DNA of 64,000 bases from Alphaproteobacteria bacterium (GTDB taxonomy: Bacteria > Pseudomonadota > Alphaproteobacteria > UBA8366 > Aestuariispiraceae): contig JAWPMN010000001.1 of the NCBI GenBank assembly GCA_033344895.1, forward strand, positions 310,001 to 374,000, written 5' to 3'. A program made the translations under genes and the position numbers. Each line of letters opens with the position of its first letter. Position 1 is the stretch's first letter. Shown piece after piece: positions 30,405 to 48,029 of this stretch. The notes below the pieces were generated by a model that saw only the letters and a list, made by a program, of their open reading frames with translations, did not search any database and was not told the origin of the DNA.

Positions 30405-30800
30405 TCAGCGGCCCCGGTGGCGATTCCAGGCGTACAGTGCGGGCGCGAGCACCCAATCGTAAAGCGCTGCGCCCAGATGGTAGACGCCCGGCAATGCCAC
30501 AAGGCGCGCCAGAGTGCGATAGCGCGGCATCTGTCGCCAGAGCACGAGAAACGCGTCCACCCCGCGATGGACGTTGCCTTCGGCGTCGAGGACCGTCATG
30601 CGGCGCTTCACATCTTCCCGATCCAGCCCCAGTTCTTCCAGGATCGGGGCATCGACACCCGATGAGATGTCCGCCCAGCCAATGACAACGGCCTGCCGCT
30701 CGCAATATCCCTGGTAATGGGAGATTTCGGCGCTGCAGACCGGACAGGCCCCGTGATAGAGGGCTGTTACACGGCCAGATGACGGTGTCGTTTCAGTCAT
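30405..30800 (-). CDS. DCC-family (DUF393) thiol-disulfide protein
   Basis: A 131-residue thioredoxin-fold protein with the motif GACPVC (Cys19 and Cys22), typical of the DCC/DUF393 family of predicted thiol-disulfide oxidoreductases. A C-terminal hydrophobic stretch (VYHLGAALYDWVLAPALYAW) follows. The family is often found beside membrane or redox genes and its targets are unknown. It lies immediately downstream of the MscS fusion gene on the same strand. Confidence 0.8.
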   Translation of the reverse strand: MTETTPSSGRVTALYHGACPVCSAEISHYQGYCERQAVVIGWADISSGVDAPILEELGLDREDVKRRMTVLDAEGNVHRGVDAFLVLWRQMPRYRTLARLVALPGVYHLGAALYDWVLAPALYAWNRHRGR

Positions 30801-30854: not shown

Positions 30855-33800
30855 CTACTCCGCCGCACCGCCGGCGGGCTGGGCCTTTCCGACGACCGGA
30901 TGCGGCGCCGACTTCTTGTGACGGATCAGATCGATTTCCATCGGGGCCGGCCCCTGCTCGATACCGTCCTCCCCGAACTGCTCGAAGACTTCGATATAGA
31001 CGGTATCGCGGACGATCTCGAAATCGAAGTATTCGTCGATCCAGAAGTCCACACGATAGCGGTGGAACAGGCCCAGTTCGAACACCTTCACGCCGTCATA
31101 GCGCCAAGTGTAGTCGTCCAGCGCATCGTCCCGCCCCAGGACCTCGACCAGACGGGCCCGAATGCGGGCCTCCGCTGCACGAATGGATTCCTCCACCTGG
31201 CGCGGCTGATAGCGTTCCGGCACGAAAAACTCCGCACTGAACCGAACCATGTCCCCGGTCGAATAGTTCTGGATCAGGGCTTCGGACACCTGCCCGTTCG
31301 GGATGCTGACATGGTAGCCGTCGCGGGTCATCAGACGCATCGTTCGCCAGGTGATATCCGTCACCTGACCGATCATCTCATCCACCATCACCCAGTCACC
31401 GACCTTGAACGGCCGCTCGATGTTGAGAACGATCCCGGAAAAGATGTTCGCGATATTCGCCTGGATCGCCAGACCGATGATCATGGCCAGCAAGCCGGAC
31501 GTGGCCAGCAGGCTGGTCAGTTTCTGATCGAACACGAAGGCCACGACGCCGAAGATTGCCAGCAAGTAAACGCTGCCCGATGCGAAGAGACGCACGACAT
31601 TGGGGATCCTGCGGCCTGAGCGCTCCTCGATCGGAACCCACAGGAACCGTTCCAGCGAAATCACCAGCAGCCGTGCCGGGATCAGCCACCACAGCGTGTC
31701 GAAAATCATCACGAACGTATCGGTGACGGCGTCCGGCATGTTCTGCGCCGAATAGTCGAGCACCAGCGTTCCGAGCGAGACCAGCAGGATCGGCCAGCAG
31801 ATCACTCGAATCCCCAGGGTCTGGAAGCGCCAGAACTGCCCGCGGTCCTTGCGGTCCATGACGGCCGCGAAGAGCAGACCGACGATTGCAAAGATCAACA
31901 GGTAGACGAACCAGTTGTAAGGAACGGCATCGGCAGGATCGACCCCGGCCTGGCCCAGGATGACGCCCAGATCGATGCGGGTGAATTCCGGTGCCTGCTT
32001 TCCGAAGCCAATGAATGCCGGATCCCCCTCCCCGGTGCCTTCGTAGACTTCCTGGGAAATCCAGCTGCGCTCCGCAGTCCACTCCGGCAATGCGGCGAAG
32101 ACACGGCGCTCGCGAAGTCCGTCCAGCAGCGGATCGCCACTCGGCCCTTCGCCCAGGAGCGAGGCCAGATCGATATCGCCCAGCCCCAGGACATCCAACC
32201 AGCCCTCCGCCTCAGCCACTTCCGCGGCCGCCGGCTGAGCTGGGCCCGCCGTCGCGGCATCGTTGCGGGACTTCACCAATCCCATGCCGAGCACGTCGGT
32301 GACATACATGAGGTTGTTGCGGCTGAGCAGTCGGTGATGGAAGCCCAACCCGGTCAGAAGCGTGCCGTAGGCATGCTTGATGTCGGAAAATTCGAGCTTG
32401 AATGTCCCCGACACCCGGTAGGATTCGTATTTCAGGTCGCCGTCGACCCCGGTCTTGTCCGGTTCGCCCAAGCTGATCGGCTCCACCGCGTTCACGAACA
32501 CGATGTCCTGCGGCTCAAAATCGCCGCGATAGCGGAACCAGATCAGGAAATCGATCTTGAACCGGTCTTCCAGAACGACAGTGTCCTCGCCCTGCTGTTC
32601 GAAGACCTTCTCGACATTCTGAAGCTGGACGCCGGTATAGACGACATTGGTTCGATACATGAACCGGTCGTTGACATAGAGAACCTTGCCTTGCTGCACC
32701 AGATCCAGGAAGCCTGTCACGCCGCGTTCCAGAATGGGCTGCAACTGCGTCAGCGCCGAGATCATGCTGGCGCCGTTGTAGAGACCGATCTGAACGCTCG
32801 TCGTGTTCTCGCCGGCCGGCCCGAAATACCGTTCGCCGCCGACCACACGCGTGGCGCGTTCGGGATGGTCGAACCCGTTCAGGTAATCCCGGACGGCACC
32901 GCGCAGCACCTCAATCGGGGCGAGTTCCGCCTCTGCCTCGTCAGCCGGTGCCTGCCCGATATCGGAAAGAATGCCCGCGATGGCCAGATGCGCCGCATCA
33001 AAGGCGAAGGCGGCGGTCCAGTCGGGCGTGATCCCATATTCCGAGATGTGATCCGTTCGGAAATTCTGCGCGACCTCGGTCGCCGTATCGAAGAGAAGCG
33101 GCGTTGTGACAAAGATGCCGTTGGTCACAGACGCGGCAGGTTCACCGTCCGGCAGAACCGCCTGGACCTCGGATACAAAGGCCCCGGTGGCCATGTCGGA
33201 CAGTCCCACGATCCCGTTTCGGACCCGCCCCTGGCGCAGGGCCGTAACAATGCGCGCGGCCTGCGGCGCGCCGCCCTGGACGAAGATATGGCCCGTCAGC
33301 TTCTTGTCCCGCATTTCCTGCGCGATCGCTTCCGCACGACGCGTCAGGCCGTCCAGATTCGCCGGATCATAGGCCCAGAAGTTCAGCACCTTGGTGCCGA
33401 ACCGTCGGTAGGTCTTGTCGAACGCATCGGCCAGCTCACGACCGCGGGCGGTGTCGGCATGAATGATCGACACCGTTTCCTGTCCGACGACGTTGCGCAG
33501 ATAGTTCGCCAGAAAGCGGGTCTGCTCCAGATCGTCATAGACCGTACGGAACTGCCATTGCGGCTGGTCCCCTTCGGACCGGGCCTCGGCCGGTGCGGTG
33601 GTCAGAAGCGGAATTCCGGCGGCTTCATAGATCGGGGCAGCGGCGGCCGTCGCCTCCGGGGACCAATGACCGATGACGGCGGTGATGCCTTCGCGTCCGG
33701 CGATTTCCTGGGCGGCGGCGACAGCGCCTTCCGCCGAATTGAAGTCATCGAACTTTTCGATCACCACGGCGCGACCACGGATGCCGCCGCTCTCGTTAGT

Positions 33801-34043
33801 CTGTTCTGCGGCGAGGCTCGCCCCGCGCAGCATCGCCGCCCCGGATGCGGAATCCACCCCGTCCAGAGGACCGACAACCGCAATACGGACCGGATTCGAA
33901 TAGTTCAGGTCCAGAACAGTGACACGGGTCAGCAGCGAGAACACGGCCGATGTCCCGGCCATCATCAGCAGGATGACCAGGAACATATTCCGCTTGGTCA
34001 TCGGCCAGTTGCCGAAAACCGTCCGCCAAATTTTCTGAAACAC
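30855..34043 (-). CDS. Periplasmic-sensor / MscS fusion channel
   Basis: A 1062-residue membrane protein with an unusual domain order. Residues 19-40 are a membrane anchor. Residues 50-440 resemble a type I periplasmic binding protein of the Leu/Ile/Val (LivJ) class (IAVVGPLDGVDSASGAAMLRG..., VIGHWSPEATAAAAPIYEA). Residues 445-595 form a domain with YRTNVVYTGVQLQNVEKV, DFLIWFRYRGDFEPQDI and FVNAVEP, which resembles the beta-sandwich ligand-binding domain of Cys-loop (pentameric) receptors. A linker leads to about five membrane helices (residues 715-880) whose last, LLAMIIGLAIQANIANIFSG, is the MscS pore helix. The MscS beta and C-terminal domains (880-1035) follow. The product would be an inner-membrane channel gated or modulated by a periplasmic solute; this is inference from architecture. 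The Cys-loop resemblance is from pattern memory only. It lies 59 bp downstream of the adhesin stop on the same strand. Confidence 0.78.
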   Translation of the reverse strand: MFQKIWRTVFGNWPMTKRNMFLVILLMMAGTSAVFSLLTRVTVLDLNYSNPVRIAVVGPLDGVDSASGAAMLRGASLAAEQTNESGGIRGRAVVIEKFDDFNSAEGAVAAAQEIAGREGITAVIGHWSPEATAAAAPIYEAAGIPLLTTAPAEARSEGDQPQWQFRTVYDDLEQTRFLANYLRNVVGQETVSIIHADTARGRELADAFDKTYRRFGTKVLNFWAYDPANLDGLTRRAEAIAQEMRDKKLTGHIFVQGGAPQAARIVTALRQGRVRNGIVGLSDMATGAFVSEVQAVLPDGEPAASVTNGIFVTTPLLFDTATEVAQNFRTDHISEYGITPDWTAAFAFDAAHLAIAGILSDIGQAPADEAEAELAPIEVLRGAVRDYLNGFDHPERATRVVGGERYFGPAGENTTSVQIGLYNGASMISALTQLQPILERGVTGFLDLVQQGKVLYVNDRFMYRTNVVYTGVQLQNVEKVFEQQGEDTVVLEDRFKIDFLIWFRYRGDFEPQDIVFVNAVEPISLGEPDKTGVDGDLKYESYRVSGTFKLEFSDIKHAYGTLLTGLGFHHRLLSRNNLMYVTDVLGMGLVKSRNDAATAGPAQPAAAEVAEAEGWLDVLGLGDIDLASLLGEGPSGDPLLDGLRERRVFAALPEWTAERSWISQEVYEGTGEGDPAFIGFGKQAPEFTRIDLGVILGQAGVDPADAVPYNWFVYLLIFAIVGLLFAAVMDRKDRGQFWRFQTLGIRVICWPILLVSLGTLVLDYSAQNMPDAVTDTFVMIFDTLWWLIPARLLVISLERFLWVPIEERSGRRIPNVVRLFASGSVYLLAIFGVVAFVFDQKLTSLLATSGLLAMIIGLAIQANIANIFSGIVLNIERPFKVGDWVMVDEMIGQVTDITWRTMRLMTRDGYHVSIPNGQVSEALIQNYSTGDMVRFSAEFFVPERYQPRQVEESIRAAEARIRARLVEVLGRDDALDDYTWRYDGVKVFELGLFHRYRVDFWIDEYFDFEIVRDTVYIEVFEQFGEDGIEQGPAPMEIDLIRHKKSAPHPVVGKAQPAGGAAE

Positions 34044-34101: not shown

Positions 34102-37100
34102 TCAGACCACGGTAACGTCGATTTGTTCGGTTACTGTATCCGTTCCGTCGGAAATCTCCACAATGAAGCTGTCATCCGACCCGCTGCCGTCGTGATCATA
34201 GACGAATGTGTTGCCGTTGAAACTGACCGATCCATGCTGCGGGCCCTGCGCAAGGCTGTAGGAAAGCTGGTCTCCGTCCGGATCCGAGCCCATCAGCAGG
34301 CCCTTGTAGACCTCATTGTTGCTGATCGACAGCTCAATCAGATTTTCGCGTGCCGCATTCGCGCTCATCGTGCCGTCATGACCGTTTCCGGTCAGATCGG
34401 TCACCGCCGTGCCTACCGATTCGTTGAACGTCCAGTAACCGGACAGCCCCGTCTCGTTGCCGCTCAGCTGCTGGTGCATGGTCTGATTGATTTCCAGTTC
34501 GGTTCGGGCGGTATCCCAGATCCGAACTTCATCCATCGGATAGGTGTATCCCGTTCCTTGCGCGCTCGGGGAATGCGCCGGGTCGCCGATCATCAGCGAA
34601 TCCGAGGTCGAGGAGATGTTGCCCTTCGTCCAGACATCGTCGTAACCGCCGCCCGCAATGGTCCAGCCGTTTTCGCTTCCGTCCAGATAGGCGCTCAACT
34701 GACCGTCCGTGGGATGGCTGCCCTGATCGATGACCATGGCGACATGATGCCAGCCGGAATCGACCCCTGACATGTCCAGTTCCAGCTCGCCCTGGCCCGT
34801 GCCTGTCGACGTCCGCGCAATCAGCGTGTTTCCATTCATGAACAGGGAATATCCCGGGTCCGTCGACCCGTCGGTATTGCCTTTGGACATCAGGAACTGC
34901 AGCCCCGCAACACCGCCGGCGCCCGGCCAGTAGAACCACATTTCGGCCGTCATATCCCCGGTTCCGGGCTCCAGATCGGCGTGGTGGCCGATTTCGACGT
35001 AATCCGCGGTGCCGAGACTGACCGCATTCTGCGTTCCGTGGATCGTGAAACTGCGGCTGCCAGCCGTCGCCGCGCCATGCTCGTCGATCACGTCGTAGGT
35101 AACGGTAACGACCTCGCTCTGTCCGGCCCCCAGATTGGCGAACTGCGCGGTATCGATGCTCAATGCTCCCGACGCGCCGTCGAGTGTGTAGGAGACAGTG
35201 CGTGCCCCATTGCTGGAAACGACAGAGGCGTTCGACACTGTGAGCACGTCGCCATCCGGATCGCTGGCATCGCTCAGCAGATTGGAACTGAGTGTACCGG
35301 ACCCTGACTCGATCCCGCCAACCGGGATTTCCGCAGAAATGACCAGATTGTCGATCCCCCAGCTTTCATCGCTGATGTCCTGGTCCAGCGTGGAGGTAAA
35401 GCCAAGCTGCAGCATCGGATTGCCATTTGCGTCGACCGGCAGGGCCGCGATCTGCTGCTGTGTCAGGGTCATATCGACCCGGAAGGAATGGTCGTCCCAT
35501 CCGCCGTTGAAACCGGGCCCCTGGTTCACCCCCTGGGCGAACGTGACGGCGACCGTATCATCGATGCCGGGTACCGGGCCCGCGACAGTCGTGTTGTAGA
35601 CGAAGGAGCGCGCGGCAACAGTCTGGCCACCGATCTGGATCTGGAAGTTTTCGCCGTCCCAGGTATCCATCTTGTAGAAATCGAAACTGATTGTCGTCTC
35701 GTTGGCGCCGGCCGGCAAGGTGAAGGTCTTTGACGTCGACGCGCCGTTGCCGAAAGCCCCCATGAATTCGGTCTGAACGGTCGCCGTATCCGTCGTCGTG
35801 GAATTGCTCCAGCCGGACGCCCCGTTTTCGAAATCTTCCGACGCAATGTTGAAAGTCATGGTTTCGCTGAAGGTCGCCGAGACATTGGCGGAGACCCCGT
35901 CGAAGTTTCCGGTCGCGTCTGCAACAACCTCGCCAGGCGCGAAGCCGTCCCTGAAATTGTATAGCGCGCGCAATCCGGCTTCATCGCCGACCAAGCTGGC
36001 TTGATAATTGTCTGCGATTTCGGTGTCCGTCCGAGCATGATCCCAGATCCGGAATTCGGACATCTGACCGTCGAAATAACGGCCGCTGCCATCGCCGAGC
36101 CAGGCACCGATGGCAGTGCCCGTGATCTGACCGCCGGACGCCCCGACAATGGAGAAGTTCCCGGCCACAGTCGCATCAAGCTGTCCGTCGATATACAGGT
36201 TCGCCTGCGTGTTATCGAAGGTAATGGCGACATGGTGCCACTCGCCGGTCGGGATGGTCGTGTTGCTGCTGATCGTACCGCTCTGGTTCGATCCCTGGAA
36301 CAGGACCTGACCCGGGGTGCCGTCGCCGATCCGGAAAATGGCCAGGCTGTTTACGCCATTGGCCTGCTGCGTGAAGATGGCTTCCTGGTTGTTCGTATCC
36401 AGATAGACCCATGTCTCGATCGTGCCCGCCGTCAGGCCGTTCACTGTCGCGTCGGGCACGTCGATATGGGCATTGGCGCCGTTGAATTCGGCGACCGCCG
36501 AGACATTTGTGGCCTCTCCGGCAATCAGCGGCGCGTTGTTGATCAGGTTCACGGTCACGGAAATCTGCTGGACGGTCTCACCGCCGTTACCGTCGGTGAC
36601 CCGTACCGCGAAAGCATCCACCCCGGAAAAGCCCGGATCGGGCGTATAGGAATAGGTTCCGTCCGCATTGACCACTGCCGTGCCATGGGCGCCATCGGCG
36701 GACAACGAGTAGGACAGCGCATCCCCGTCCGCGTCCCCGGCCACGATGGTGCCCTGCAGCACACTGTCGGCCTCGAGCGAAACCGAATTGGAGACCGTGG
36801 CGTAGACGCCAACGCCGGGCGCGATCGACGCACCGCCGGACATCGTCCCATCATTGCCATGGCCCGTCGCGTCGGTGACGGTCGCGCCGTCGGCCCCGTC
36901 GAAGCTCAGGTTCATGACCAGACCGGGCTCGTACCACGGTTCCGCCAGTTCGCCGTTCATCGACGCCTGGATTTCCGCCTGACTGCGCGCCGTGTTCCAG
37001 ACCCGCACATCGTCGATCAGTCCGTCGAAGTTTCGGCCGGCGATAACGTCGTCGCCGATGGTCCAGGGATCGCTGTTGGCCGACCCCAGCGTAAAGGGTG

Positions 37101-37362
37101 CGGAGGCCGTAAGCTGGCCGTCGATATAGGCGTTCATCGTCGTACCGTCATAGGTGAAGGCGACGTGCTGCCACTGACCGGCGACGATGGGTCCCGAATA
37201 GGGAATGCTGGTAGCCCCGTTCCACAGGCCGATCGTGCCGTCGATGATATGCATGCGATAGGTCGAATAATCGGCCTGCGATAGGTCGAATAATCGGCCT
37301 GCGACCGGTCCGACTTGTCGAATATGGTTGTCAGCCCGCTGACACTGTCCGGGTTCAGCCAC
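34102..37362 (-). pseudogene. C-terminal part of giant LamG/cadherin-like adhesin, out of frame with its start
   Basis: The 3' portion of the adhesin gene, in a different frame from the 5' part because of the 23-bp duplication at 37254-37304. It encodes three or four LamG/concanavalin-like modules (for example QADYSTYRMHIIDGTIGLW, then WQHVAFTYDGTTMNAYIDGQL) interleaved with cadherin-like/Ig-like VCBS domains (DGDALSYSLSADGAHGTAVV). It ends in a cadherin-like domain (YSLAQGPQHGSVSFNG). The apparent start near 37362 is only a GTG in the duplicated region, so this part is not expected to be made unless the frame is restored. The frame itself is intact over more than a thousand codons, which argues for recent or reversible damage. 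Confidence 0.75.
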
Positions 37363-40300
37363 ATTTCGACCGTGATCGGCGAATTCCCGCCGACCGTGAA
37401 ATCAGGCACATCCGCGATTTCCACGCGGCCGTCATTGCCATCCAGCGCCAGGGCCGAATGCCCGGTGACACCCAGAATGTCCGGCGCGTCGTTGTCCGGC
37501 GTGACCGTCACCTCGACCGTCCGGGTTTCAGTCGGCGCCGTGCCGTCGTCGACACTCACCGTGACATTGGCTGTGCCGAAGAAGTCGGGGGCACCGGTAA
37601 AGGTCGCGGTTCCCATCGCAGCCTGCACATCGGCCGGCGTACCGGTGATGCTGATACCGTTGGCGACCGCCTGAACCGTTGCGCCGCCGAAGCCTGGATT
37701 TGCCGCCAGCGACCCCTGGGCGGAGGTCAGGGTAACCGTCAGAACATCGCCGTCGGCATCCGCAACCACGATCCCCGTCAGTGGGATCGCGGTGTCCTCC
37801 ACACCGGACTGCAGGGCATCGCCGCTGCTAATCTCGGCATTGTTCAGCGTAATCGGCGGTGCGCCGGGTACGCTGCTTTCCAGCGACCCATCGAAGCCGT
37901 ATTCGGCAATGAGATCCGGATGATCCAGCGGATCCAGCGGCGCGGACATGGTCGCCTGGATATTGGCCTCTGACCGCACACTGTTCCAGACGCGCAGCCC
38001 GTCGAATTCAGCATCCAATGCCTGGCTGGATTCAAAGGAACCGCCGACAGCATCCTGATCGGAGCCCAGGACCAGCGTCCCGCCGGTGGTCAGCGCACCG
38101 GTCGCCCCCAGCGACAGGACGGGCTGACCGTCGACATGGAGCACCGTGTCGTCAACGCCGGGGCCGAAGCTCAGCGCCACGTGATGCCAATTGCCGTCGG
38201 TCAGGCTGCCGGCACCGACCGATCCTAGGTTACTGTTATTGAGCCAGACCTGCAAATTGCCGCCGCTCAGCGTGACCCACAACTCGTTCGGCGATCCCGG
38301 AACCGCATAGGATAACAGGGCGCCATTCGAATCCGTCGTCTTGACCCATGTCTCGATCGTGCCCGCCTCGGTCGGGAAGGTATCGAAATCGGCCACAGCC
38401 GCGTAGGAGAAGCTTGAATCGTTCCCGTTCGTCCCCGTACCGGTGGTCGACAGCGCACCCGGAACGAACAGCGTCGGCGCATCGTTGGTGCCGGTTATCG
38501 TGACCGAAACGGTGTTCTGCGTTGTTGTCGTGCCATCGGACACGCCATAGGTGAAAGACAGCACCTCGCTTTGGCCTGCCGCAAGATCCTCGAACTGACC
38601 GGCTGCGAAGACCAGATTGCCGTCCGCATCGATCGTTGCACCAACATCGCGACTGCCATTCGCGACCTGCTGAAGGTTCACCGCCGACAGGGGTTCCCCG
38701 TCAACGTCGCTTTGCCCGGCCAACAGATCGACCGTGAAGGTCGCGCTGTCCTCACCGAACGTGCGCGTCACGGCGGAAACAACCGGTGCATCATTCGAAC
38801 CGTTGATCGTCACCTGCACTGTGTTCTGGGTCGTCGTCGTCCCGTCGGACACATCATAGGTGAAGGAGAGAACTTCCGACTCCCCGTCATCCAGGTCCTC
38901 GAACTGACCGGCCGCAAAAACCAGATTGCCGTTCGCATCAATCGTCGCGCCGACATTCCGGCCGCCGGTCTGTGCAAGCGAAGCCGCGGACAGGGCCTCG
39001 ACATCGACATCCGTCTGGCCCGTAAGCAGATTGACGGAGACCGCACCGGAATCCTCACCGCGGGTCGTCGCAATCGCCGCAACCGACGGCGCATCATTCG
39101 AACCGGTAATCGTCACCTGCACCGTGTTCTGCGTCGTCGTCGTCCCGTCGGACACATCATAGGTGAACGAGAGAACTTCGGACTCGCCGTCATCCAGGTT
39201 CTCGAACTGGCCGGCTGTAATGATCAGATTGCCATCTGCATCGATCGACGCATTAACAATGCGGCTGCCATTCGCGACCTGCTGGAGGTTCACCGCCGAC
39301 AAAGGCTCCCCGTCAACGTCGCTTTGCCCGGCCAACAGATCGACCGTGAAGGTCGCGCTGTCCTCACCGAACGTGCGCGTCACGGCGGAAACAACCGGTG
39401 CATCATTCGACCCGTTGATCGTCACCTGCACCGTATTCTGGGTCGTCGTCGTCCCGTCGGACACATCATAGGTGAAGGAGAGAACTTCCGACTCCCCGTC
39501 ATCCAGGTCCTCGAACTGACCGGCCGCAAAAACCAGATTGCCGTTCGCATCAATCGTCGCGCCGACAATGCGGCTGCCATTCGCGACCTGCTGAAGGTTC
39601 ACCGCCGACAGGGTGTCTGATGCATCAACATCGGACTGATCGATCAGAAGGTCGATCGCGAAGACGGGGTTGTCCTCACCAAAAACCCGAATGATCTGCA
39701 CCACATCGGGGGCATCGTTTCGCCCCTCGATCACCACCTGCGCGGTATTGGCGACGACACCGCCATTTCCATCGACCACGTTGTAGGACACGGAAAGCGT
39801 CACCTGCTGACCGTTCGGCAGGTCCTGGAACAGGAACGGTGCGATTTCCAGTATGCCGGTATCGTCATCCACCACAAAATGCGGCGGACTGGTGATCGGC
39901 CGGTTGTCGCTGGAGGTAATCACGACGGAATCCGTGTCCAGATCGTCGCTCGTATCGAGGTCGCTTGCGACAGACAGCAGTTCTATGCGGATCGGGTCCG
40001 GGTCGTCTTCGTTTGTAACTCCGGCGTCGATTGCCTGCGACACGGTGGGGACATCGTTCGTGCCGGTTACCGTGACGGTCAGGATGGCCGTATCCGTCGC
40101 ACCGGATGGATCCGATACTGTGTAGCTGATCTGGACATCCCGGTCTTCGCCAACCGCCAGGTCGTCGAAATCCGCGCCCGGATCAAAGGTGATGGAGCCG
40201 CCGCTGAAGGTAACCGTGCCGGAATTGGCGCCGACGGTCGCGGCGGTTACGGACAATGCATCGCTATCCGGGTCGGAATCGTTGCCGGCCACATTGACGG

Positions 40301-42833
40301 TCAGGATCGCATTCTCCGCCGACGTTTCGAAGTCGTCATCGGCAACGGGGGCGCTGTTCGGCGTGACGTCGTTGGTGTCGACGACGGTCGTGCCGCCGTT
40401 GCTATCGTCCTCGTCCCGGGATTGGCGGGTTGTGGTCGTTGTTGTCGTGGTGCGCGTGGTCGACTGCGTCGACGTCCCGCCCAGGCCGGAATTTCCGATG
40501 GTCGGGTTCAGCAACTGGTTGAAGCCCAGATTGGACGACGGGCCACCGCTCTGATTGCCGCCAGCCGCCGTGGCGATGTTCTGAAGGGCCTCAATCTCCT
40601 CCTCGGTCGGCAGATCGCCGCCGCCGCCCTGCTGCGCCGTCGGGGTCACGGGCGTACCGCCGTTGGTCTCGTCCGGCTCCGGAACGACCTCTGTTTCATC
40701 TTCGCTGGCGGCGTTCCCGCTCGCCGTCTGGATCGTTTCGGTGACCTCCTCTTCGGTGACCTTCTCTTCGGTGGCCTCCTTCGTCTGGCCAGGCGGGCTG
40801 CCGGAGGTCGTTTCAACAACCTCCTCAACGGTCTCGACAACTTCCTCGGTGGCAGGGCCGCCGGTCTGCGCGGTCTGCGTCTGATCATTGCCCGGTTCGG
40901 TGCCTTCGGTCCCGGTGCCGGACGAATCCTGTGCCTGCTGCTGCGGCTCCCCGCCCTGGGCGGGTTGCTGGCCCCCCTGTGGCTGCTCTTGCGGCTGATC
41001 GTCAGCGGTCTGTTGCTGACCCTGCGGTTGGCCCTGTGGTTGATCGCCACCGGCGGGCTGTCCACCCTGAGGGCCGGACTGAGATTGGCCCTGCGTGTCC
41101 GCTGCCGCGGTCTGCTGCGGCGGTTGCTGACCGCCCGCGCCACCGTCGGAAGGCGGTCCGGATTGCGGCCCGCCCTGATCCGCTGTTTGGGTTTGCGGTG
41201 CGCCGCCCCCGTTACCGGGACCGCCTTGCGGGGCCCCACCGGCCTCACCGCCGGCGGGTTGGCCGGATTGCGGCTGCCCCTGCTCGGCCGTCTGCGACTG
41301 TTGCGGCGGAGGATTGCCGCCGGGTTGCGGCCCGGGTTCTCCGGTCGTGCCGGTGACCTCCGAAATGGCATTCGCCATTTCCTGACCGGACGCGCCGCCG
41401 CCGCCCTGGGCAAGCGCCTGCATTGCCGGATCCGCCGGAACATTCTGCTGAGATGCCGCCGTATTTGCAGCCTGCTGTGCGGCACCGGCCTGGGCCATGG
41501 ACTGATCCGGCGACTGGCCGTTCGCCAGTGCGGCTTCCAACTCCGCCCCGAAGGCGTCGCCGCCACCGGCCTGGGAAAGTGTCTGATCGACATTGTTGCC
41601 GGAGGCCAGGGACGCTGCCATCTGATCGGCAGGCGACAGAGGCACGGATTGCTGCTGCGCCGTCTGCTGCGCCGCGTTGGCGGCCTGCTGACCGGACTGC
41701 ATGGCGTCACTGGGCGCCGCGCCATCGGCCAGACTCTGTTCCAGCGCGGCCGCGAAATTCTCATTGCCGCCTGCGGCCTGCATGACCTGATCGACATTTT
41801 CGCCGGAGGCTAGGGACGCCGCCATCTGATCGGCAGGCGACAACGGCACGGATTGCTGCTGCGCCACGGTGTTCTGCTGCTGCTGCGCCTGATCGGCCTG
41901 GTTCATGGCCTCACCGGCACCGGCGCCATTCGCCAGCGCGTCTTCCAGTGCGGCGGCAAATGCGTCCCCGCCCCCGGTCTGTCCCAGTGCCTGATCCACA
42001 CTATCACCGGAAGCCAGGGCGGCGGCCAGTTGATCCGCCGCGTTCAGTTCGACTTCGGCATCCTGACGCGCCTGAGCGGAATCGACCGCCGCCTGCTGGG
42101 CGTCGTTCATCGCCTGATTGGCATTGGTCCCGTTCGCGAGGGAGTCCTCAAGCCCGTTGATGAACGCATCGGCGTCTCCGCCCGAACGCTGCGCCGCGTC
42201 CTGAAGCACCTCGTCGACATTCTCACCACCGGCCAGCGCCGACAGGACGGGGTTATCGACCGGCACTTCGGCCTGCTGCAGGCTCTGCAGCCCGGTTTGT
42301 GCAGCCTGGGTGGCCGAATTGACCGCCGCGTCAGGGCTGTCGCCGCGCGCCAGGGACGACTGCAATTCATCCAGAAATACATTCTCGACCTGGCCGGACT
42401 GCGCATCGTTCATGTCGCCGCCCATCTCGGCAACAACGCGCGACACGGCCTCCTCGACACCGTTGCCGGAGGCGATTGCCGCCAGCAGGGCATCGGAGGG
42501 CGAGACATTCTGCGCTGATGGATCATAAGTATCGATCGCGGTCTGCATCGCCTGACCGGCATAGTCGGCCGCGTCGGTCAGCGGACGACTGCCGTCGAAA
42601 AGCTCATCGCGAAACGTGTTGATGAAGACGTTGGCGGCGTGATCCGCAGCACCTGCAGAACCGCCGGCATCGAGCACCGACTGACGCACCGTGTCCTGAA
42701 GTTTGGACAAGGCCTCCTCGGCATCGCTGCCGCCCGCGAGGGCCGCCAACACAGCTTCGAAAGCCCCTTGAGGCAATTGCGGATTGACCGGCAGATCAGT
42801 GCCGGCCGTGTTCTGCTGAAGATCGTCAGCCAT
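37134..42833 (-). CDS. Giant secreted adhesin, N-terminal and central part (frameshifted at the end)
   Basis: From the ATG at 42833 the frame encodes 1899 residues. In order these are six and a half copies of an Ala/Asn/Asp/Gly-rich repeat of about 60-70 residues (residues 20-490), a Gly/Pro/Gln-rich low-complexity stretch (490-740), then cadherin/VCBS-type Ig-like domains (NSAPVADDD..., SNDAP boundaries), four near-identical 100-residue repeats and a LamG module. The last about 40 residues are out-of-frame nonsense after the 23-bp duplication. It is a predicted type I-secreted surface adhesin for biofilm or substrate attachment, encoded directly downstream of its own TolC/ABC/HlyD genes. No GGxGxDxxx RTX nonapeptides are seen. 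Removing one duplicated copy gives a single product of about 2,902 residues. Confidence 0.8.
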   Translation of the reverse strand: MADDLQQNTAGTDLPVNPQLPQGAFEAVLAALAGGSDAEEALSKLQDTVRQSVLDAGGSAGAADHAANVFINTFRDELFDGSRPLTDAADYAGQAMQTAIDTYDPSAQNVSPSDALLAAIASGNGVEEAVSRVVAEMGGDMNDAQSGQVENVFLDELQSSLARGDSPDAAVNSATQAAQTGLQSLQQAEVPVDNPVLSALAGGENVDEVLQDAAQRSGGDADAFINGLEDSLANGTNANQAMNDAQQAAVDSAQARQDAEVELNAADQLAAALASGDSVDQALGQTGGGDAFAAALEDALANGAGAGEAMNQADQAQQQQNTVAQQQSVPLSPADQMAASLASGENVDQVMQAAGGNENFAAALEQSLADGAAPSDAMQSGQQAANAAQQTAQQQSVPLSPADQMAASLASGNNVDQTLSQAGGGDAFGAELEAALANGQSPDQSMAQAGAAQQAANTAASQQNVPADPAMQALAQGGGGASGQEMANAISEVTGTTGEPGPQPGGNPPPQQSQTAEQGQPQSGQPAGGEAGGAPQGGPGNGGGAPQTQTADQGGPQSGPPSDGGAGGQQPPQQTAAADTQGQSQSGPQGGQPAGGDQPQGQPQGQQQTADDQPQEQPQGGQQPAQGGEPQQQAQDSSGTGTEGTEPGNDQTQTAQTGGPATEEVVETVEEVVETTSGSPPGQTKEATEEKVTEEEVTETIQTASGNAASEDETEVVPEPDETNGGTPVTPTAQQGGGGDLPTEEEIEALQNIATAAGGNQSGGPSSNLGFNQLLNPTIGNSGLGGTSTQSTTRTTTTTTTTRQSRDEDDSNGGTTVVDTNDVTPNSAPVADDDFETSAENAILTVNVAGNDSDPDSDALSVTAATVGANSGTVTFSGGSITFDPGADFDDLAVGEDRDVQISYTVSDPSGATDTAILTVTVTGTNDVPTVSQAIDAGVTNEDDPDPIRIELLSVASDLDTSDDLDTDSVVITSSDNRPITSPPHFVVDDDTGILEIAPFLFQDLPNGQQVTLSVSYNVVDGNGGVVANTAQVVIEGRNDAPDVVQIIRVFGEDNPVFAIDLLIDQSDVDASDTLSAVNLQQVANGSRIVGATIDANGNLVFAAGQFEDLDDGESEVLSFTYDVSDGTTTTQNTVQVTINGSNDAPVVSAVTRTFGEDSATFTVDLLAGQSDVDGEPLSAVNLQQVANGSRIVNASIDADGNLIITAGQFENLDDGESEVLSFTYDVSDGTTTTQNTVQVTITGSNDAPSVAAIATTRGEDSGAVSVNLLTGQTDVDVEALSAASLAQTGGRNVGATIDANGNLVFAAGQFEDLDDGESEVLSFTYDVSDGTTTTQNTVQVTINGSNDAPVVSAVTRTFGEDSATFTVDLLAGQSDVDGEPLSAVNLQQVANGSRDVGATIDADGNLVFAAGQFEDLAAGQSEVLSFTYGVSDGTTTTQNTVSVTITGTNDAPTLFVPGALSTTGTGTNGNDSSFSYAAVADFDTFPTEAGTIETWVKTTDSNGALLSYAVPGSPNELWVTLSGGNLQVWLNNSNLGSVGAGSLTDGNWHHVALSFGPGVDDTVLHVDGQPVLSLGATGALTTGGTLVLGSDQDAVGGSFESSQALDAEFDGLRVWNSVRSEANIQATMSAPLDPLDHPDLIAEYGFDGSLESSVPGAPPITLNNAEISSGDALQSGVEDTAIPLTGIVVADADGDVLTVTLTSAQGSLAANPGFGGATVQAVANGISITGTPADVQAAMGTATFTGAPDFFGTANVTVSVDDGTAPTETRTVEVTVTPDNDAPDILGVTGHSALALDGNDGRVEIADVPDFTVGGNSPITVEMWLNPDSVSGLTTIFDKSDRSQADYSTYRRPIIRPIACISSTARSACGTGLPAFPIRDPSSPVSGSTSPSPMTVRR
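37254..37304. repeat. 23-bp tandem duplication inside the adhesin gene
   Basis: Two perfect 23-bp copies (37254-37276 and 37277-37299) are followed by five more bases of the same period, 51 bp in all. The second copy is absent in the reading logic of the protein: both flanking frames contain the same QADYSTYR peptide. Because 23 is not a multiple of three, the extra copy shifts the frame. The full gene minus 23 bp is 8,709 bp, exactly 2,903 codons including the stop. Confidence 0.92.
38485..39725 (-). repeat. Four tandem VCBS/Ig-like repeats, about 300 bp each
   Basis: The adhesin segment between the RNDAP and TNDAP boundaries consists of four units of about 100 codons. Shared blocks include LSAVNLQQVANGSR, GESEVLSFTYDVSDGTTTTQ and NTVQVTI[TN]GSNDAP. 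DNA identity between units is high over long stretches, so recombination could change repeat number. Confidence 0.8.
41357..42810 (-). repeat. N-terminal Ala/Asp/Gly repeats of the adhesin
   Basis: Six and a half units of about 60-70 residues. Each holds two copies of an [AL]-L-A-[SN]-G-x(5)-[AM] motif, as in MAASLASGENVDQVM then LEQSLADGAAPSDAM. The inner units (fourth to sixth) are most alike and the outer ones more diverged. I do not recognise this repeat. Confidence 0.7.
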
Positions 42834-43076
42834 CGCTTTTCGTCCCTCTCCCCCGGAGACGTCGCGACCCTGCCCTCGTCGCATCCCCCGGAATCTCAGC
42901 AAATTTAGCCGAAAACGGACTAAATTGGCGACTCTAATGTAAGCGCAAAATTTCAATGCGCTACATATTTTTTTCAAATTTCTCTAAAATTTTATATATT
43001 GAGACACCTATTTATCCTACCCCAGTAGGGCACAACCAAATTAGAGAGGCAGAATCAATTGGTTGCGCTGACGCCT
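42834..43076 (-). promoter_or_regulatory. AT-rich adhesin promoter region
   Basis: The 243-bp gap between hlyD and the adhesin is strikingly AT-rich from about 42900 to 43015, unlike its surroundings. On the minus strand CCTAC-TGGG-GTAGG (43016-43029) forms a dyad between a TTGTGC and an ATAAAT element, which could be a regulated promoter. The adhesin therefore probably has its own promoter in addition to read-through from the secretion genes. There is no obvious terminator in the gap. Confidence 0.45.
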
Positions 43077-44375
43077 CTAGCGCTCTCGCATTGCAGCACG
43101 CATCGAGCTGACATAGGGGTCCAGGATGTACTGGGCGATCCTGCGTTCCCCAATGACGATCGAACTGGCGACGCGCAACCCCGGATAGAGGCGATATTCA
43201 AGGTCACCATCATTGAAACCCTGGGCATCCGGCTCGATCCGGACTGAATAGTAAGGCACCCCTTCGTCATCCAGCAGCGCATCCGGGCTGACCCCGGCCA
43301 CGGTCCCTTCCAGCTTACCGAAACGCGCGGCGTCCGCGGAGGTCAGGGTGATCTGCGCCCGCTGTCCGGTCCGCACGAAACCGATGTCCTCCAGCGGCAT
43401 CCGGGCATCGATGACGAGACGGTCGTCCAGCGGCACGATCTCCGCCAGCACGTCCCCCGGCTTGATGACACCGCCGACCGTCGACACCGCAATGGTCTTC
43501 ACGATCCCGGCCACGGGCGAGCGGATGACCATGCGGGACTGGCTGTCCTGAAACTTGCGCAGCCGCTCCGTCAGTTCATCGAACTCCCGGCGGGCGGTGG
43601 ACAGTTCTGCGCGCCCCTCCTCCGTGAAGCGCTCAGCGATTTCGGAGAGTTTCGCGCGAGCCTCTTCCAGCGCGGCCCGTGTCCGCTGCAGAAGGGCCCG
43701 ATCCTCTTTCACCTGACCGTCCAGCGTCGCCAGATCCTTCAACAGGTTGATATGCGTCATGCGGTTGGTGATGTTCTGCTTCAGCAGCGTGTCGGAGATT
43801 TTGATCTGCTCATCCAGGAAGCCGCGCGTCGCTTCGGCGGTTTCAAGCCGGGCCGACACTTCGACGATCTCCTGGCGGCGCTGCGCAATCAGCTGCCTTT
43901 GAACATTGAACTCCGCGGCCAGACGCTTGCGGCGCGTTTCCATGATGGCCCGTGCGGCCTCGACCTGCTCCGGCACGCGCGCGATCAGGTCCTCGGGATA
44001 GTCGGCGGCGTTGTTGCCGGCCAGTTCCGCTTCCAGACGCGCGATATCGATGCGCAGGCTGGTAACGCGGGACTGCAGTTCCGCCACCTCGGCGTCGATC
44101 TGCGTGGAATCCAGCGTGACGATGATTTGACCGGCCTCCACGACCTCGCGTTCCTGCGCGCGAATCTCGGAAACGATGCCGCCTTCCAGATGCTGTATCT
44201 GGCGCACCTTGCTGCCCGGGACGACCTCGCCCACCGTGGCGCTGACAATGTCCAGCGTTCCGTACCAGGCCCACGCCCCCAGCGCGCAAACGAACAGCGT
44301 CGCCAGAAGAATGAAGGATACCGTGCCGCGGCCGGCATCAGGCATCGGGGCAATCAGATCGTCATGTCCTGCCAT
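43077..44375 (-). CDS. HlyD family type I secretion membrane-fusion protein
   Basis: A 432-residue periplasmic adaptor linking the ABC exporter to TolC. One membrane segment at about residues 20-42 is followed by the barrel-sandwich/lipoyl half (VGEVVPGSKVRQIQHLEGGIV, the usual HlyD signature), a long coiled coil (about 85-290), the second lipoyl half (VIRSPVAGIVKTIAVSTVGG) and a beta-barrel end. The gene ends 243 bp before the adhesin, the likely cargo, and begins 12 bp after the ABC gene. Confidence 0.93.
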   Translation of the reverse strand: MAGHDDLIAPMPDAGRGTVSFILLATLFVCALGAWAWYGTLDIVSATVGEVVPGSKVRQIQHLEGGIVSEIRAQEREVVEAGQIIVTLDSTQIDAEVAELQSRVTSLRIDIARLEAELAGNNAADYPEDLIARVPEQVEAARAIMETRRKRLAAEFNVQRQLIAQRRQEIVEVSARLETAEATRGFLDEQIKISDTLLKQNITNRMTHINLLKDLATLDGQVKEDRALLQRTRAALEEARAKLSEIAERFTEEGRAELSTARREFDELTERLRKFQDSQSRMVIRSPVAGIVKTIAVSTVGGVIKPGDVLAEIVPLDDRLVIDARMPLEDIGFVRTGQRAQITLTSADAARFGKLEGTVAGVSPDALLDDEGVPYYSVRIEPDAQGFNDGDLEYRLYPGLRVASSIVIGERRIAQYILDPYVSSMRAAMRER

Positions 44376-44387
44376 GCCGGGCGCCCC

Positions 44388-46115
44388 CTATTCCGCCGCC
44401 TTGGGCTTGACCGGCGGACCGCCTCTGGCGCCGGCATTCCAGGTCTGCGACGCGGCGGCACCATCCTTGGATAAGGTCCTGATCTCGGGGCGCGGCTTGG
44501 CGTCCAGATCAATCATCATCTGCGCGCCGCGAATGATCTGCGGATCGTGCGAGGAGACGATGATCGTCCGCCCGGCGCGGGCCAACTGGACCAGCGTTTC
44601 ATAGATCTGGCGAACCCCTTCCTCGTCCATGCCCTCGGTCGGCTCGTCAAAGACGACAAGACGCCCGCCGCTGGCCAGAGCCCGCGCCACGGCAAGCCGC
44701 CGTCTTTCCCCCCGCGCCATGGACAGGCCGTTATTCACGACCATGGTGTCCAACCCTTTCTCGGTCTCGTGCACGAAACGCGCCGCGCCGCTGCGTTCCA
44801 GCATTGCTTCCAGGGCCTCATCGGTCAGATCGGGGTTGAGGAGCTTCAGATTGTCCCGGATCGTCGCGTTGATGAAGGTCGGCTCCTGCGGCAGATAGAC
44901 GATCTGGCGCCGCCACCACGCCGGCACGATCTGACGGAGATCCACGTCATCCGCCAGAATCTGGCCGCGGGACGGTTCGATCAGGCCAGCGATCAGCCGC
45001 GCCAGGGTTGTCTTGCCCGCACCGTTCCGCCCAATCAAGGCGACAACGGAACCCGGCTCCAGGACTACATTCAGATCCTCGAACAGGGGCGCCGGCGCGC
45101 CCGGGGCAGTATAGGCGAGGTCGCGCAGTTCCAGCTTCCCCGAATAGGTCCTCAGCGCCGCGCCCTCGCCCGGTTCGACCGGCAGTTCGGCCAGCGATTT
45201 GGCACGATCCAGCGCCTGCCGGGACTTCACGATCGATTCCGAAAGCTGCGCAAACCGGGTCACAGGCTGCATGGCCCGGGCCGCCAGCAGGTTCGCACCG
45301 ATCATCATGCCGACATCCAGCTCACCGACCACGACCAGGGTCGCGCCCACCGCAATGACCCCCGCGCTCATCAGGCCCTGAATGCTCTGTGTCAGGGACT
45401 GCAGGCCGCCCTGCCGGCGGGCGAGACGACGGCGCAATCCCTGGACGACCGCCAGATTTTTGGCCCAGTCGCCGATCAGCCTTTCCCCGGCGCCGAAGGC
45501 CCGGACACTTTCCGCCGTGGACGTCGTGGTGCCGATCAGGCCGTGTCCGATCGCCTGATGCTCTGCCAATTGCCGTGTCATCGGCCGCAACGCGATCTGG
45601 TTGATTAGTCCCAGCAACATCACCGCGCAGATCGCGATCAGCACGATCAGCGCCAACGGTGGGCTGAAAATGAAGATCGCGCCGAGGAAAAGCAGCGCGA
45701 AGGGAAGATCCATCATTGCCGTCAGGTTCGGCGCCGAATAGGCACTTTCCACCTGTTCCAGCCCCGAGATCGCCTCGCGACGATCGCCGGAGGACATGCG
45801 CTCGAGAAAGCCGAGCTTAGCCGTTGTCAGCACGCCGAACGCCCCAATCCCGGCGCGATGATCCGGCTCCCCGGAAACCGACGCGGCAAGGCGCATGCGG
45901 CTCCACCGGAACCCCAGTTCGAAAAGGATGGCGATCCCGACGCCGACGGTCAGCGTCACCAGGGTCGCGTCGACACCGTTGGAGACATACCGGTTCAGGA
46001 CCTGAATGACATAAAGTGAAGACGCCAGGCCGAGAAGGTTGGCCAGGACGGATGCAACGATCATCAAGGCCGTCTGTGACGGCCGACGCCGAAGCCTGGC
46101 CAAAAGCTCACCCAT
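44388..46115 (-). CDS. Type I secretion ABC transporter, PrtD-like
   Basis: A 575-residue half-transporter that powers export of the adhesin. Five or six membrane helices occupy about residues 17-300. The ATPase domain follows with Walker A GRNGAGKTTLARLI, Q-loop region VYLPQEPTF, and Walker B RLVVFDEPTEGMD. The signature is LSMARGERRRLAVARAL instead of the usual LSGGQ. It lacks the N-terminal C39-like domain found in LapB-type adhesin exporters, so the PrtD/HasD-like group is the better match. It is followed after 12 bp by hlyD. Confidence 0.9.
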   Translation of the reverse strand: MGELLARLRRRPSQTALMIVASVLANLLGLASSLYVIQVLNRYVSNGVDATLVTLTVGVGIAILFELGFRWSRMRLAASVSGEPDHRAGIGAFGVLTTAKLGFLERMSSGDRREAISGLEQVESAYSAPNLTAMMDLPFALLFLGAIFIFSPPLALIVLIAICAVMLLGLINQIALRPMTRQLAEHQAIGHGLIGTTTSTAESVRAFGAGERLIGDWAKNLAVVQGLRRRLARRQGGLQSLTQSIQGLMSAGVIAVGATLVVVGELDVGMMIGANLLAARAMQPVTRFAQLSESIVKSRQALDRAKSLAELPVEPGEGAALRTYSGKLELRDLAYTAPGAPAPLFEDLNVVLEPGSVVALIGRNGAGKTTLARLIAGLIEPSRGQILADDVDLRQIVPAWWRRQIVYLPQEPTFINATIRDNLKLLNPDLTDEALEAMLERSGAARFVHETEKGLDTMVVNNGLSMARGERRRLAVARALASGGRLVVFDEPTEGMDEEGVRQIYETLVQLARAGRTIIVSSHDPQIIRGAQMMIDLDAKPRPEIRTLSKDGAAASQTWNAGARGGPPVKPKAAE

Positions 46116-46151: not shown

Positions 46152-48029
46152 CTATTGTGCCCAATCAAACAGCGGGTTGTCGAGATCGCCGTCATCACGC
46201 CCGGAAGGAGGCGTCGGTTCGGACGGTTCCTCGGCGGCGGGGTCTTCCTGCGGTGCCGACGCGGCGGGCCCCTCGTCGCGGACAGGCTGATCCGGCGGCT
46301 CCGGTCGCGGCAGGGTATCGAAGCTGGGCGGGGATTCCAGAGCGTCAAGGAAGGGCTGACTTTCGGCGGGCGCCGGTTCCGCGGTTCCCGGCTCTGTGGC
46401 TCCTGGTTCGGCAGGGGCTGTTTCCAGGATAGGGGCATCCGGTGTCAGGGTGGAAAGGGGCGGTTCCGACGGCGCGGTTTCGCCGGAAGGAGGCGTTGGC
46501 GAGGCGCCGGGTGTCGGGCTGGCTCCGGACGGCGGCGGCGTGAAGACACCGCCCGAACTCTCACCGTCCTGGATCAGGGCCGATGGGTCGAGCTGCGTTC
46601 CGAGGTCGGAATCCGGCCCCAGAAGCTGCATCGAAGGATCGGGCGCGCCACCGAACAACCCGGCAATGGGCGCCAGCATCTCACTACGATCCGGACGCGG
46701 AACGGTTTCGATGACGCCATAGTCGAGCGAACCGGAAGCGGCGAGCAATTCGACCAGGGCCAGTTGAACCTCGGCTTCCGCCGCGATGGCATCGCTCTGG
46801 GCGTTGATCAGCGACGTTTCCCCGGAAAGGACATCGATCAGCGACCGCTGCCCCAACTGCCGCTCCTGGATCGCCACTTCCAGAAAGGCCCGCGCAATCC
46901 CGGCCTGATCAAACAGATATCCGGATCGCTGCCGCGCGGTCTCCAACTGTTTCCAGGCATTCCGTACGCGTTCCTCGACCTGCCGCTTCAGGTCACCCAT
47001 GGTTCGGGTCGCCGCGACGACATCGGATTGCGCAGCCCGCAGGGTATTGATGGACGTGAACCCGAGATTGAAAGGGAAGTTCATCTCCAGCTTGATGGAC
47101 GATTCCAGTCGGCGTCCGATCGTGCCGCCGTCGTTCTTGGTCATGGTGCGCTCGCCGACGACTTCGAAAGTCGGGGCAAAACTGTCACTACGGGCGCTGA
47201 TGCGGTCCTGCTGAGACAGGGAAACGTCAATGGCTGTCAGGCGCAGTTCCGGGTTGCCCTTGAAGGCCAGGTCCAATGCGTGTTCCAGCGTGTCGGGCAA
47301 ACTGGAATGATCGACCTTCAATCCGGGCAGCGCGCCAATATCTTCCGGCACGTCGCCGAATACGGATCGATAGCGGTTCAGGGCCAGTTCATACGCCCCT
47401 TCCGCATCGACGCGCCGGGCCTGAGCGCCCGCCAGTTGTGTCTTGGCCTGCAGAAGGTCGGTCGACAGACCGGATCCGGCTTCAATCCGCGCCTCTTCCA
47501 GACCGGTCTGACGGCGGATATTCTCTTCGGACCGCCGCGCAAACAGCACCACTTCCGCACTGCGCAGCAGATTGATGTAGGCAGTCAGCGCCTCCGCGAT
47601 CAGGGTCTGCCGTGTCTGAACAAGGGCGATCTCGGACTGAACCAGTTGAAGGCGCGCGCGCTCTACCGTCGCATTCGCCCCGCCGAAATCCCAGAGAAGC
47701 TGGGTGATCGTCGCGGTGAGTTCCTGCGCCGGCGCAATCACCGTATTGGTGTTGGTTCGCTCAAGCCGGTAGCGCTCGACATTGGCGGTCACGTCCAGGG
47801 CCGGATACCAGACGCCCAGGGCTTCTTGGGATCTCTCGCGGGCCGCTGTCACCTGGGCCTGACCGGCCAGAAGCCTGTCATGGGATTCAACGGTCTCGGA
47901 AATCAGGGCTTCCAGAGAATTCGCGCGCACGTCTATGGCCCCGCTGAAGCAGGCAACCGCACACAGTGCGGCAACTCGCAGGAAGCGCGCTCTCTTCATA
48001 CCCAACAATCCGCGAGCCTCGACCCGCAT
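46152..48029 (-). CDS. TolC family outer membrane channel with Pro-rich tail
   Basis: The outer-membrane exit duct of the type I secretion system. A signal peptide begins at the second Met (residue 11, 47999) and is followed by two outer-membrane-efflux repeats (about residues 40-430) with the helix-rich pattern QEALGVWYPALDV and SEIALVQTRQTL. After the channel part the protein continues for some 180 residues as a Pro/Ser/Glu/Ala-rich low-complexity tail ending in LFDWAQ, unusual for TolC. The start may be the ATG at 47999 rather than 48029. It is the first gene of the secretion-adhesin unit. Confidence 0.85.
   Translation of the reverse strand: MRVEARGLLGMKRARFLRVAALCAVACFSGAIDVRANSLEALISETVESHDRLLAGQAQVTAARERSQEALGVWYPALDVTANVERYRLERTNTNTVIAPAQELTATITQLLWDFGGANATVERARLQLVQSEIALVQTRQTLIAEALTAYINLLRSAEVVLFARRSEENIRRQTGLEEARIEAGSGLSTDLLQAKTQLAGAQARRVDAEGAYELALNRYRSVFGDVPEDIGALPGLKVDHSSLPDTLEHALDLAFKGNPELRLTAIDVSLSQQDRISARSDSFAPTFEVVGERTMTKNDGGTIGRRLESSIKLEMNFPFNLGFTSINTLRAAQSDVVAATRTMGDLKRQVEERVRNAWKQLETARQRSGYLFDQAGIARAFLEVAIQERQLGQRSLIDVLSGETSLINAQSDAIAAEAEVQLALVELLAASGSLDYGVIETVPRPDRSEMLAPIAGLFGGAPDPSMQLLGPDSDLGTQLDPSALIQDGESSGGVFTPPPSGASPTPGASPTPPSGETAPSEPPLSTLTPDAPILETAPAEPGATEPGTAEPAPAESQPFLDALESPPSFDTLPRPEPPDQPVRDEGPAASAPQEDPAAEEPSEPTPPSGRDDGDLDNPLFDWAQ

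Follow-up and report, generated by a model that had tools for sequence, protein, structure and literature searches.

The window analysed here is a 64,000-nucleotide stretch of an alphaproteobacterial genome (Aestuariispiraceae; contig JAWPMN010000001.1, positions 310,001 to 374,000). On its minus strand lies a gene whose single product joins a periplasmic binding protein (PBP), a domain that we assign to the Cys-loop receptor-type ligand-binding domains (LBD) and a pore of the MscS superfamily. The frame is stop-free from a GTG codon at position 34043 down to the stop at 30855 and comprises 1062 codons, although its start is uncertain because the alignments of many relatives begin only at about residue 15. 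The gene consists of the following parts:

30855..34043, minus strand: putative PBP-LBD-MscS fusion channel, whole gene (1062 aa, GTG start)
33912..33995, minus strand: N-terminal helix, aa 17-44, of the full-length model, presumably a transmembrane helix or uncleaved signal anchor
32730..33908, minus strand: type I PBP domain, aa 46-438 (Pfam; LivJ-type matches of Foldseek in the PDB)
31950..32681, minus strand: Cys-loop receptor-type LBD, aa 455-698 (model, Foldseek, profile comparisons)
32355..32381, minus strand: Pro-loop site, aa 555-563 (IKHAYGTLL), without the Pro-Phe-Asp of pentameric ligand-gated ion channels (pLGICs) (alignment)
32109..32276, minus strand: insertion of low conservation within the LBD, about aa 590-645, which many relatives lack or have in a short form (alignment)
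31416..31919, minus strand: helical part of the MscS module with five long helices predicted at aa 709-731, 736-768, 771-809, 815-837 and 842-876 (model, YnaI-type matches), presumably in the membrane
31260..31454, minus strand: MscS beta-domain, MS_channel_2nd (Pfam)
30966..31247, minus strand: C-terminal alpha/beta domain, aa 933-1026, probably cytoplasmic (model)

A Pfam scan recognised Peripla_BP_6 at residues 51-358 (E 5.3e-33) and MS_channel_2nd (PF00924) at residues 864-928 (E 1.4e-18, above the cut-off), and neither Pfam nor NCBIfam recognised a family over the middle domain. The full-length model (mean pLDDT 80.5, pTM 0.71, 45 alignment rows) contains a helix at 17-44, the PBP up to about residue 438, a beta-domain at 462-698, five long helices between 709 and 876, the last of which (842-876) is the pore helix, and an MscS-like C-terminal part. 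The type I fold of the PBP is supported by Pfam and by Foldseek, whose top PDB matches are LivJ-type PBPs (E 2.2e-20), and the PF00924 match together with the conserved pore helix places the C-terminal module in the MscS superfamily, which the sections of PMC4560390 considered here define by a homologous pore helix and beta-domain of about 90 residues. The original prediction for this locus, that one frame joins a PBP, a middle domain and a complete MscS pore, is thus borne out by Pfam and by the relatives described below. Its limit of the PBP at about residue 440 holds as well, the end lying at about 438, but the middle domain reaches to about residue 698 and not 595, as the model strands 655-668 and 686-698 come after the insertion within the LBD.

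We recovered 79 related loci from bacterial genomes, and in 71 of these a single stop-free frame spans at least query residues 60-920. Of the eight that do not, five reach a contig end (L030, L045, L049, L072, L081), two have stops within the match (L013, L061) and one is divided between frames (L087). An assembly or annotation error or a chance fusion was rejected, since the fusion is kept across 71 of the 79 relatives. According to the record titles, the relatives belong to Rhodospirillales, Azospirillum, Magnetococcales, Desulfamplus and some gamma- and betaproteobacteria. Within the window's own order, the fusion occurs in 5 of 43 genomes, every one from the window's genus. For the phylum, 43 of 398 sampled genomes match the middle domain at E<=0.1 with fusion and pLGIC types pooled, in a rough survey that scored no more than six candidates in most genomes and includes three weak matches (E 0.009-0.03) among the 43. 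Nine records in PLSDB cover 80% or more of the query at a single site, and the best match, from Azospirillum, is annotated plainly as ABC transporter substrate-binding protein.

Three alignments were used, with 65 of 74 rows (A1), 45 of 46 rows (A2) and 30 of 40 references (A5). Apart from the window protein, A2 has 44 rows, of which 42 retain the domain order PBP-LBD-MscS while sharing 31-44% identity with that protein, and residues of the LBD and linker are among the most conserved of the whole protein, with Y456, V457, N458, D459, F461, M462, Y463, W502 and F503 invariant in all 45 rows. The middle region reaches 51% mean column identity with 22 invariant columns in A1. Both the retained order and the conserved middle region speak against the view that PBP and LBD are leftovers of domain shuffling without a sensory role; although the ligand cleft of the PBP is poorly conserved among the fusion proteins (MscS types in the following), as would be expected from a relic, we consider this explanation highly improbable.

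The middle domain was modelled separately (residues 430-700, 65 sequences, mean pLDDT 76.5, with 84-96 in ten-residue blocks over the first strands). Searched against the PDB with Foldseek, the best 50 of 1056 matches at E<=0.001 were all acetylcholine-binding proteins (AChBP, some of them engineered), nicotinic or GABA-A receptor chains or chimeras, with a best E-value of 2.8e-8. An unrelated beta-sandwich was rejected on the basis of these 50 best-listed matches. A bridge at the sequence level came from an LBD profile search of other genomes, which retrieved frames with a length of about 660-780 aa and E-values from 1e-10 to 2e-17 as well as L127 (797 aa) at 3.1e-34; in the five frames of this kind that were scanned, Pfam found a PBP together with weak Neur_chan_memb matches under the curated cut-off. 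In single profile-profile comparisons, the LBD family of the window matched L127 with a probability of 99.7 (E 1.8e-25, 206 columns) and a profile of eight PBP-pLGIC sequences with E 3.8e-22 over 125 columns. The eight-sequence profile in turn matches solved pLGICs across LBD and membrane part, including, within the best 60 of 248 matches, a GLIC-GlyR chimera (4.1e-19) and GLIC (from 1.9e-12). By this two-step argument via PBP-LBD-four-helix channels, model and profiles indicate that the middle domain is a homologue of the Cys-loop receptor LBD with the beta-sandwich fold typical of pLGICs, in support of the resemblance proposed originally. A comparison with four plain bacterial pLGICs yielded a partial match on which we do not rely (E 8.4e-5, probability 60, 53 columns), the profile of the MscS-type LBD found no match to the plain pLGICs of the window's own genome, and Pfam Neur_chan_LBD has no match on the fusion protein. 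The plain pLGICs in question are two apparent ones, located at G000:C1:255184-255702 and 2829511-2830404 (L089, L097), the second of which is under the Pfam LBD cut-off.

The bridging proteins also allow insights into how the fusion may have arisen. In a tree of the PBPs, those of 25 MscS-type and 12 pLGIC-type proteins are united in a clade of their own (support 100/99), apart from 13 free PBPs of the window genome. For this tree, the MscS types were every second of 45 non-redundant ones, minus L043 and plus the window, L146 and L126, and the free PBPs were 13 of the 15 PF13458 places of the genome (the window's own and one without a locus being omitted). The LBD tree, which included four of the plain pLGICs found, has the MscS types on one side of a branch (96/96), beside the pLGIC-type L141 (weak, 75/73). 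Judged from these trees and profiles, one PBP-LBD sensor sits on two unrelated pores, and a single pore exchange between the two channel types is likely. The Pro-loop couples the LBD to the pLGIC pore, so its loss would fit a change of pore: the motif PFD is present in none of 72 MscS types and in all 12 pLGIC types, both sets including close relatives, and the 12 extracted pLGIC-type proteins carry it as YPFD or WPFD. It is likewise absent in all 25 readable MscS rows of the non-redundant listing. According to the text of PMC4795631, as far as considered here, the proline of this [F/Y]PxD loop is the one residue conserved without exception throughout the pLGIC superfamily. Membership in the pLGIC family itself was rejected, as the fusion protein has no Pro-loop PFD and the four-helix M1-M4 membrane domain is replaced by the five-helix MscS module.

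Fusions of PBP-I domains to pLGICs have been described by Tasneem et al. (PMC549065) as ART-LGICs of Magnetospirillum and Bradyrhizobium, together with a suggested role in chemotaxis, and the portion of this article considered here contains no occurrence of MscS. The arrangement of a PBP followed by a Cys-loop-type LBD is shared with these channels, and on both sides the PBPs fall into a single clade and the LBDs resemble each other at the profile level; in contrast, the fusion has an MscS pore instead of a four-helix one and has lost the Pro-loop PFD. This comparison rests on the 12 sampled PBP-pLGICs, with the proteins of Magnetospirillum and Bradyrhizobium outside the sample.

Regarding the pore, the hydrophobic positions M854 and L858, which we take to be the equivalents of the MscS gate residues, are kept in 66 and 64 of the 72 MscS types, respectively. 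When 14 genomes were searched with a pore profile, the best non-family matches were L175, a 504-aa protein of the window's genome (L007), its likely counterpart in a same-genus genome, and L176. The three of these best non-family pores that were scanned with Pfam all carry a cyclic-nucleotide-binding (cNMP-binding) domain (E 2.9e-18 to 1.4e-21), and Pfam found this domain in none of six other MscS proteins of the window genome. In a pore tree that took in 19 fusions, the three cNMP-binding proteins group with the fusions at 100/99, apart from the six other MscS proteins. Sensor-less homologues within the clade of the fusions, named originally as an argument against the proposed channel, did not appear in this tree, and the sensor-free pores form a separate neighbouring group. 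The pore therefore appears to derive from an MscS branch resembling bacterial cyclic-nucleotide-gated (bCNG) channels, the gating of that branch's proteins here being putative. These bCNG channels, reportedly described by Caldwell et al. in 2010, are bacterial MscS-type channels gated by cyclic nucleotides. The likeness is confined to the nearest sensor-free pores, which combine an MscS pore with a cNMP-binding domain: the bCNG sensor is a cytoplasmic C-terminal cNMP domain, whereas that of the fusion is N-terminal and presumably periplasmic, and the fusion protein has no Pfam match to PF00027 and is not itself a bCNG channel by this measure. Pore and extra helices also match Escherichia coli YnaI (residues 735-927, E 2e-12), which differs in having neither PBP nor LBD. 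The window contains a second, ordinary MscS gene (L002, 12650-12856, plus strand; 519-aa open frame) with no extra sensor domain in Pfam.

The conserved pore positions would also suit a tension-gated MscS valve that has no gating ligand, in which PBP and LBD are scaffolds for anchoring by a secretion machine or surface protein and tune the threshold. The loss of most amino-acid anchors in the PBP and the linkage to giant surface proteins, both described below, can be read in the same way. On the other hand, the nine invariant residues of LBD and linker speak against mere scaffolds, and the cNMP-binding domains of the closest pores without a sensor that were found favour chemical gating. In addition, the MscS superfamily has members in which mechanosensitivity was not observed, and some pared-down ones have slight mechanosensation (PMC4560390, in part). 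On balance, a pure tension valve seems a possible but rather unlikely explanation.

As to the ligand, Ser79 and Thr102 of LivJ hold the amino-acid backbone, and the alignment places P129 and A152 of the window protein at these positions. Serine at the first position was found in 8 of 72 MscS types versus 11 of 12 pLGIC types, and threonine at the second in 8 of 72 versus 10 of 12. Among the 25 non-redundant MscS types, five have the serine, six the threonine and three both anchors (L146, L126, L061). The 13 free PBPs of the window genome have S or T at the first anchor in 11 cases and T at the second in one. Hence, as the anchors are mostly lost, an amino-acid ligand bound in the LivJ mode was rejected, and the original proposal of an amino-acid-like solute is not supported for binding of this kind; judged from these residues, most MscS types, but not every one, are unlikely to have a canonical amino-acid ligand.

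A different kind of signal is suggested by the gene neighbourhood. The channel gene closes a same-strand cluster of a TolC-type, an ABC and an HlyD gene and a giant surface protein, which together with the next gene downstream comprises:

34102..37362, minus strand: downstream part of a giant LamG/cadherin-like surface protein, directly upstream of the channel gene with a 58-base gap (Pfam)
37134..42977, minus strand: upstream part of the giant surface protein (cadherin-like, Ig-like, LamG; Pfam)
43077..44375, minus strand: HlyD-type membrane fusion protein of type I secretion (Pfam HlyD_3, 3e-21)
44388..46115, minus strand: ABC transporter of the type I secretion kind (Pfam ABC_tran and ABC_membrane), its secretion role suggested by the cluster
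46152..48029, minus strand: TolC-type outer membrane efflux protein (Pfam OEP, 3.4e-43)
30405..30800, minus strand: DCC1-like thiol-disulfide oxidoreductase, next gene downstream with a 54-base gap (Pfam)

The giant surface-protein gene is broken into two overlapping minus-strand frames (37134-37362) at a short tandem duplication, for which a genuine break, variation or an assembly error are all possible; four close relatives (L009, L010, L011, L056) show no interruption in the final ~1975 codons available.

Neighbours were counted by tblastn, as calling based on open reading frames gave wrong frames at GC-rich loci. Matches to these cluster components lie near 34 of 45 non-redundant relatives, 28 of which have TolC, ABC or HlyD; among loci with at least 5 kb on each side, the latter three are represented in 20 of 26. 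Four more loci (L064, L067, L068, L085) adjoin long proteins with TPS, MBG or YDG domains, and L147, which is outside the 45, adjoins a 2641-aa PATR-repeat protein. Because these neighbours use different export routes, the linkage points to the surface protein rather than to a single export machine, and the common factor seems to be a giant exported protein and not one route. The loci of the pLGIC types differ in this respect: in a contrast set of ten, one has ABC and TolC matches and another one a surface-protein match, while a gene resembling methyl-accepting chemotaxis proteins (MCP-like) adjoins the channel at seven (L142, L143, L144, L148, L151, L153, L154). With queries drawn from four of these seven matching loci, no match to an MCP-like gene was found at any of the 79 MscS-type loci. 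Pfam MCPsignal was at or below the cut-off in the five MCP-like neighbours scanned. Such neighbours of PBP-pLGIC genes fit the chemotaxis proposal of Tasneem et al. for bacterial pLGICs. Two loci contain further genes of possible interest: at L146 (11233-14123), the divergent PBP-LBD-MscS gene is accompanied by genes for an ABC_sub_bind protein and for an ion symporter to which a cNMP-binding domain is fused, and at L150 (10902-12608), two short frames by a PBP-pLGIC gene look by eye like pieces of a voltage-gated cation channel.

Taken together, we propose that the fusion protein is probably a ligand-gated MscS-superfamily channel coupled to the function of a surface protein, its gating being deduced from its parts. 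The overall interpretation of the original prediction is partly supported. PBP and LBD would stand in the periplasm, the C-terminus would come to lie in the cytoplasm after the five helices that follow, like that of MscS, and the subunits would assemble into a ring, which in known MscS channels has seven members. The PBP lobes might then be closed, or the contact between PBP and LBD altered, by a small molecule or by part of the surface protein, whereupon the LBD ring would turn or tilt and pull the first transmembrane helix, which directly follows the last LBD strand; the pore helices would open and ions or small solutes leave the cell. Because the gene usually adjoins a giant exported surface protein, the signal would most likely concern attachment or the state of this protein and not nutrient uptake. 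As the likeliest origin, the PBP-LBD sensor of a PBP-type pentameric channel would have been joined to an MscS pore of the cyclic-nucleotide-binding branch, upon which the Pro-loop contact needed by the old pore was presumably lost.

Closely related is a touch or attachment sensor gated by a protein partner, in which force or a conformational signal would reach the periplasmic domains from a giant surface protein that stays attached to the cell, and the channel would turn it into ion flux. It overlaps with the proposed ligand-gated channel, and the likelihoods that we assign to the different explanations do not sum to one. The neighbouring surface-protein-like genes of various export routes (type I; TPS or MBG/YDG; PATR at L147) are in line with such a sensor, as are the PBP anchors, which are mostly lost in MscS types and both kept in L146, a locus that has no surface-protein neighbour. 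However, L061 has secretion genes and nevertheless keeps both anchors, so anchor loss is not strictly tied to linkage, and a contact deduced from linkage can also mean co-regulation only. We regard this sensor as unlikely.

Several points weigh against the proposed ligand-gated channel. The Foldseek geometry of the middle domain is modest, with TM-scores by target up to 0.59, rmsd values of 7.5-15.1 A and gapped alignments, and the confidence of its model is low at the domain start. When PDB sequences were searched directly with a profile of the MscS-type LBD, nothing credible came up, the best match being a phage protein at E 0.12. Unlike the LBD tree with its single exchange, the PBP tree pairs the pLGIC-type L141 with the divergent MscS-type L146 (99/97); when this tree was constrained to keep the MscS types together, the approximately unbiased (AU) test gave p 0.052, which does not clearly reject the constraint. 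With its anchors mostly lost, small-molecule binding by the PBP may be doubtful. The total of 38 of 45 non-redundant loci that adjoin long surface-protein-like or type I secretion genes is a raw count whose only contrast is the ten pLGIC-type loci, and seven of the 45 as well as the divergent L146 have no surface-protein neighbour. Among these seven, the flanks are masked at L025 and L047, only 602 bases are available upstream at L065, the neighbour at L073 is a 758-aa open frame that matches no Pfam family, and nothing was seen at L057, L080 and L083. Finally, pLGICs are pentamers and MscS channels heptamers, a mismatch that an LBD ring on an MscS pore would have to accommodate. This bears on a further, tentative possibility, namely a separate channel class in which a Cys-loop sensor without Pro-loop drives an MscS pore and serves as attachment or touch receptor for giant surface proteins, as in this case the LBD ring would have to work sevenfold instead of fivefold.

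In the context of known systems, 15 MscS subfamilies, some of them with ligand-binding domains, are listed in the sections of PMC4560390 considered. The literature searched contains no description of a Cys-loop LBD on an MscS pore and no link between ion channels and giant bacterial surface proteins, although an earlier listing of a PBP-MscS architecture is possible, since the MscS analysis of Malcolm & Maurer, which underlies PMC4560390, was not covered. The only pLGIC with a partially characterised N-terminal domain is DeCLIC according to the part of PMC12664993 considered. DeCLIC also has an accessory N-terminal domain upon a Cys-loop-type LBD, but it keeps the pLGIC pore, and the lobes of its N-terminal domain are, in the same part of that article, beta-sheet structures that resemble calcium-binding domains and not a PBP. 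In the literature covered, Cys-loop sensors are described together with the four-helix pore that belongs to them or, as with AChBP, without any pore, and with one absolutely conserved proline in the coupling loop. The same PBP-LBD sensor, apparently moved to an unrelated pore with this proline dropped, would thus represent a natural experiment on the parts of the sensor that are needed for gating. For the family itself, the fusion is a testable candidate for an MscS channel gated by a periplasmic ligand, and it would link ion channels with giant bacterial surface proteins.

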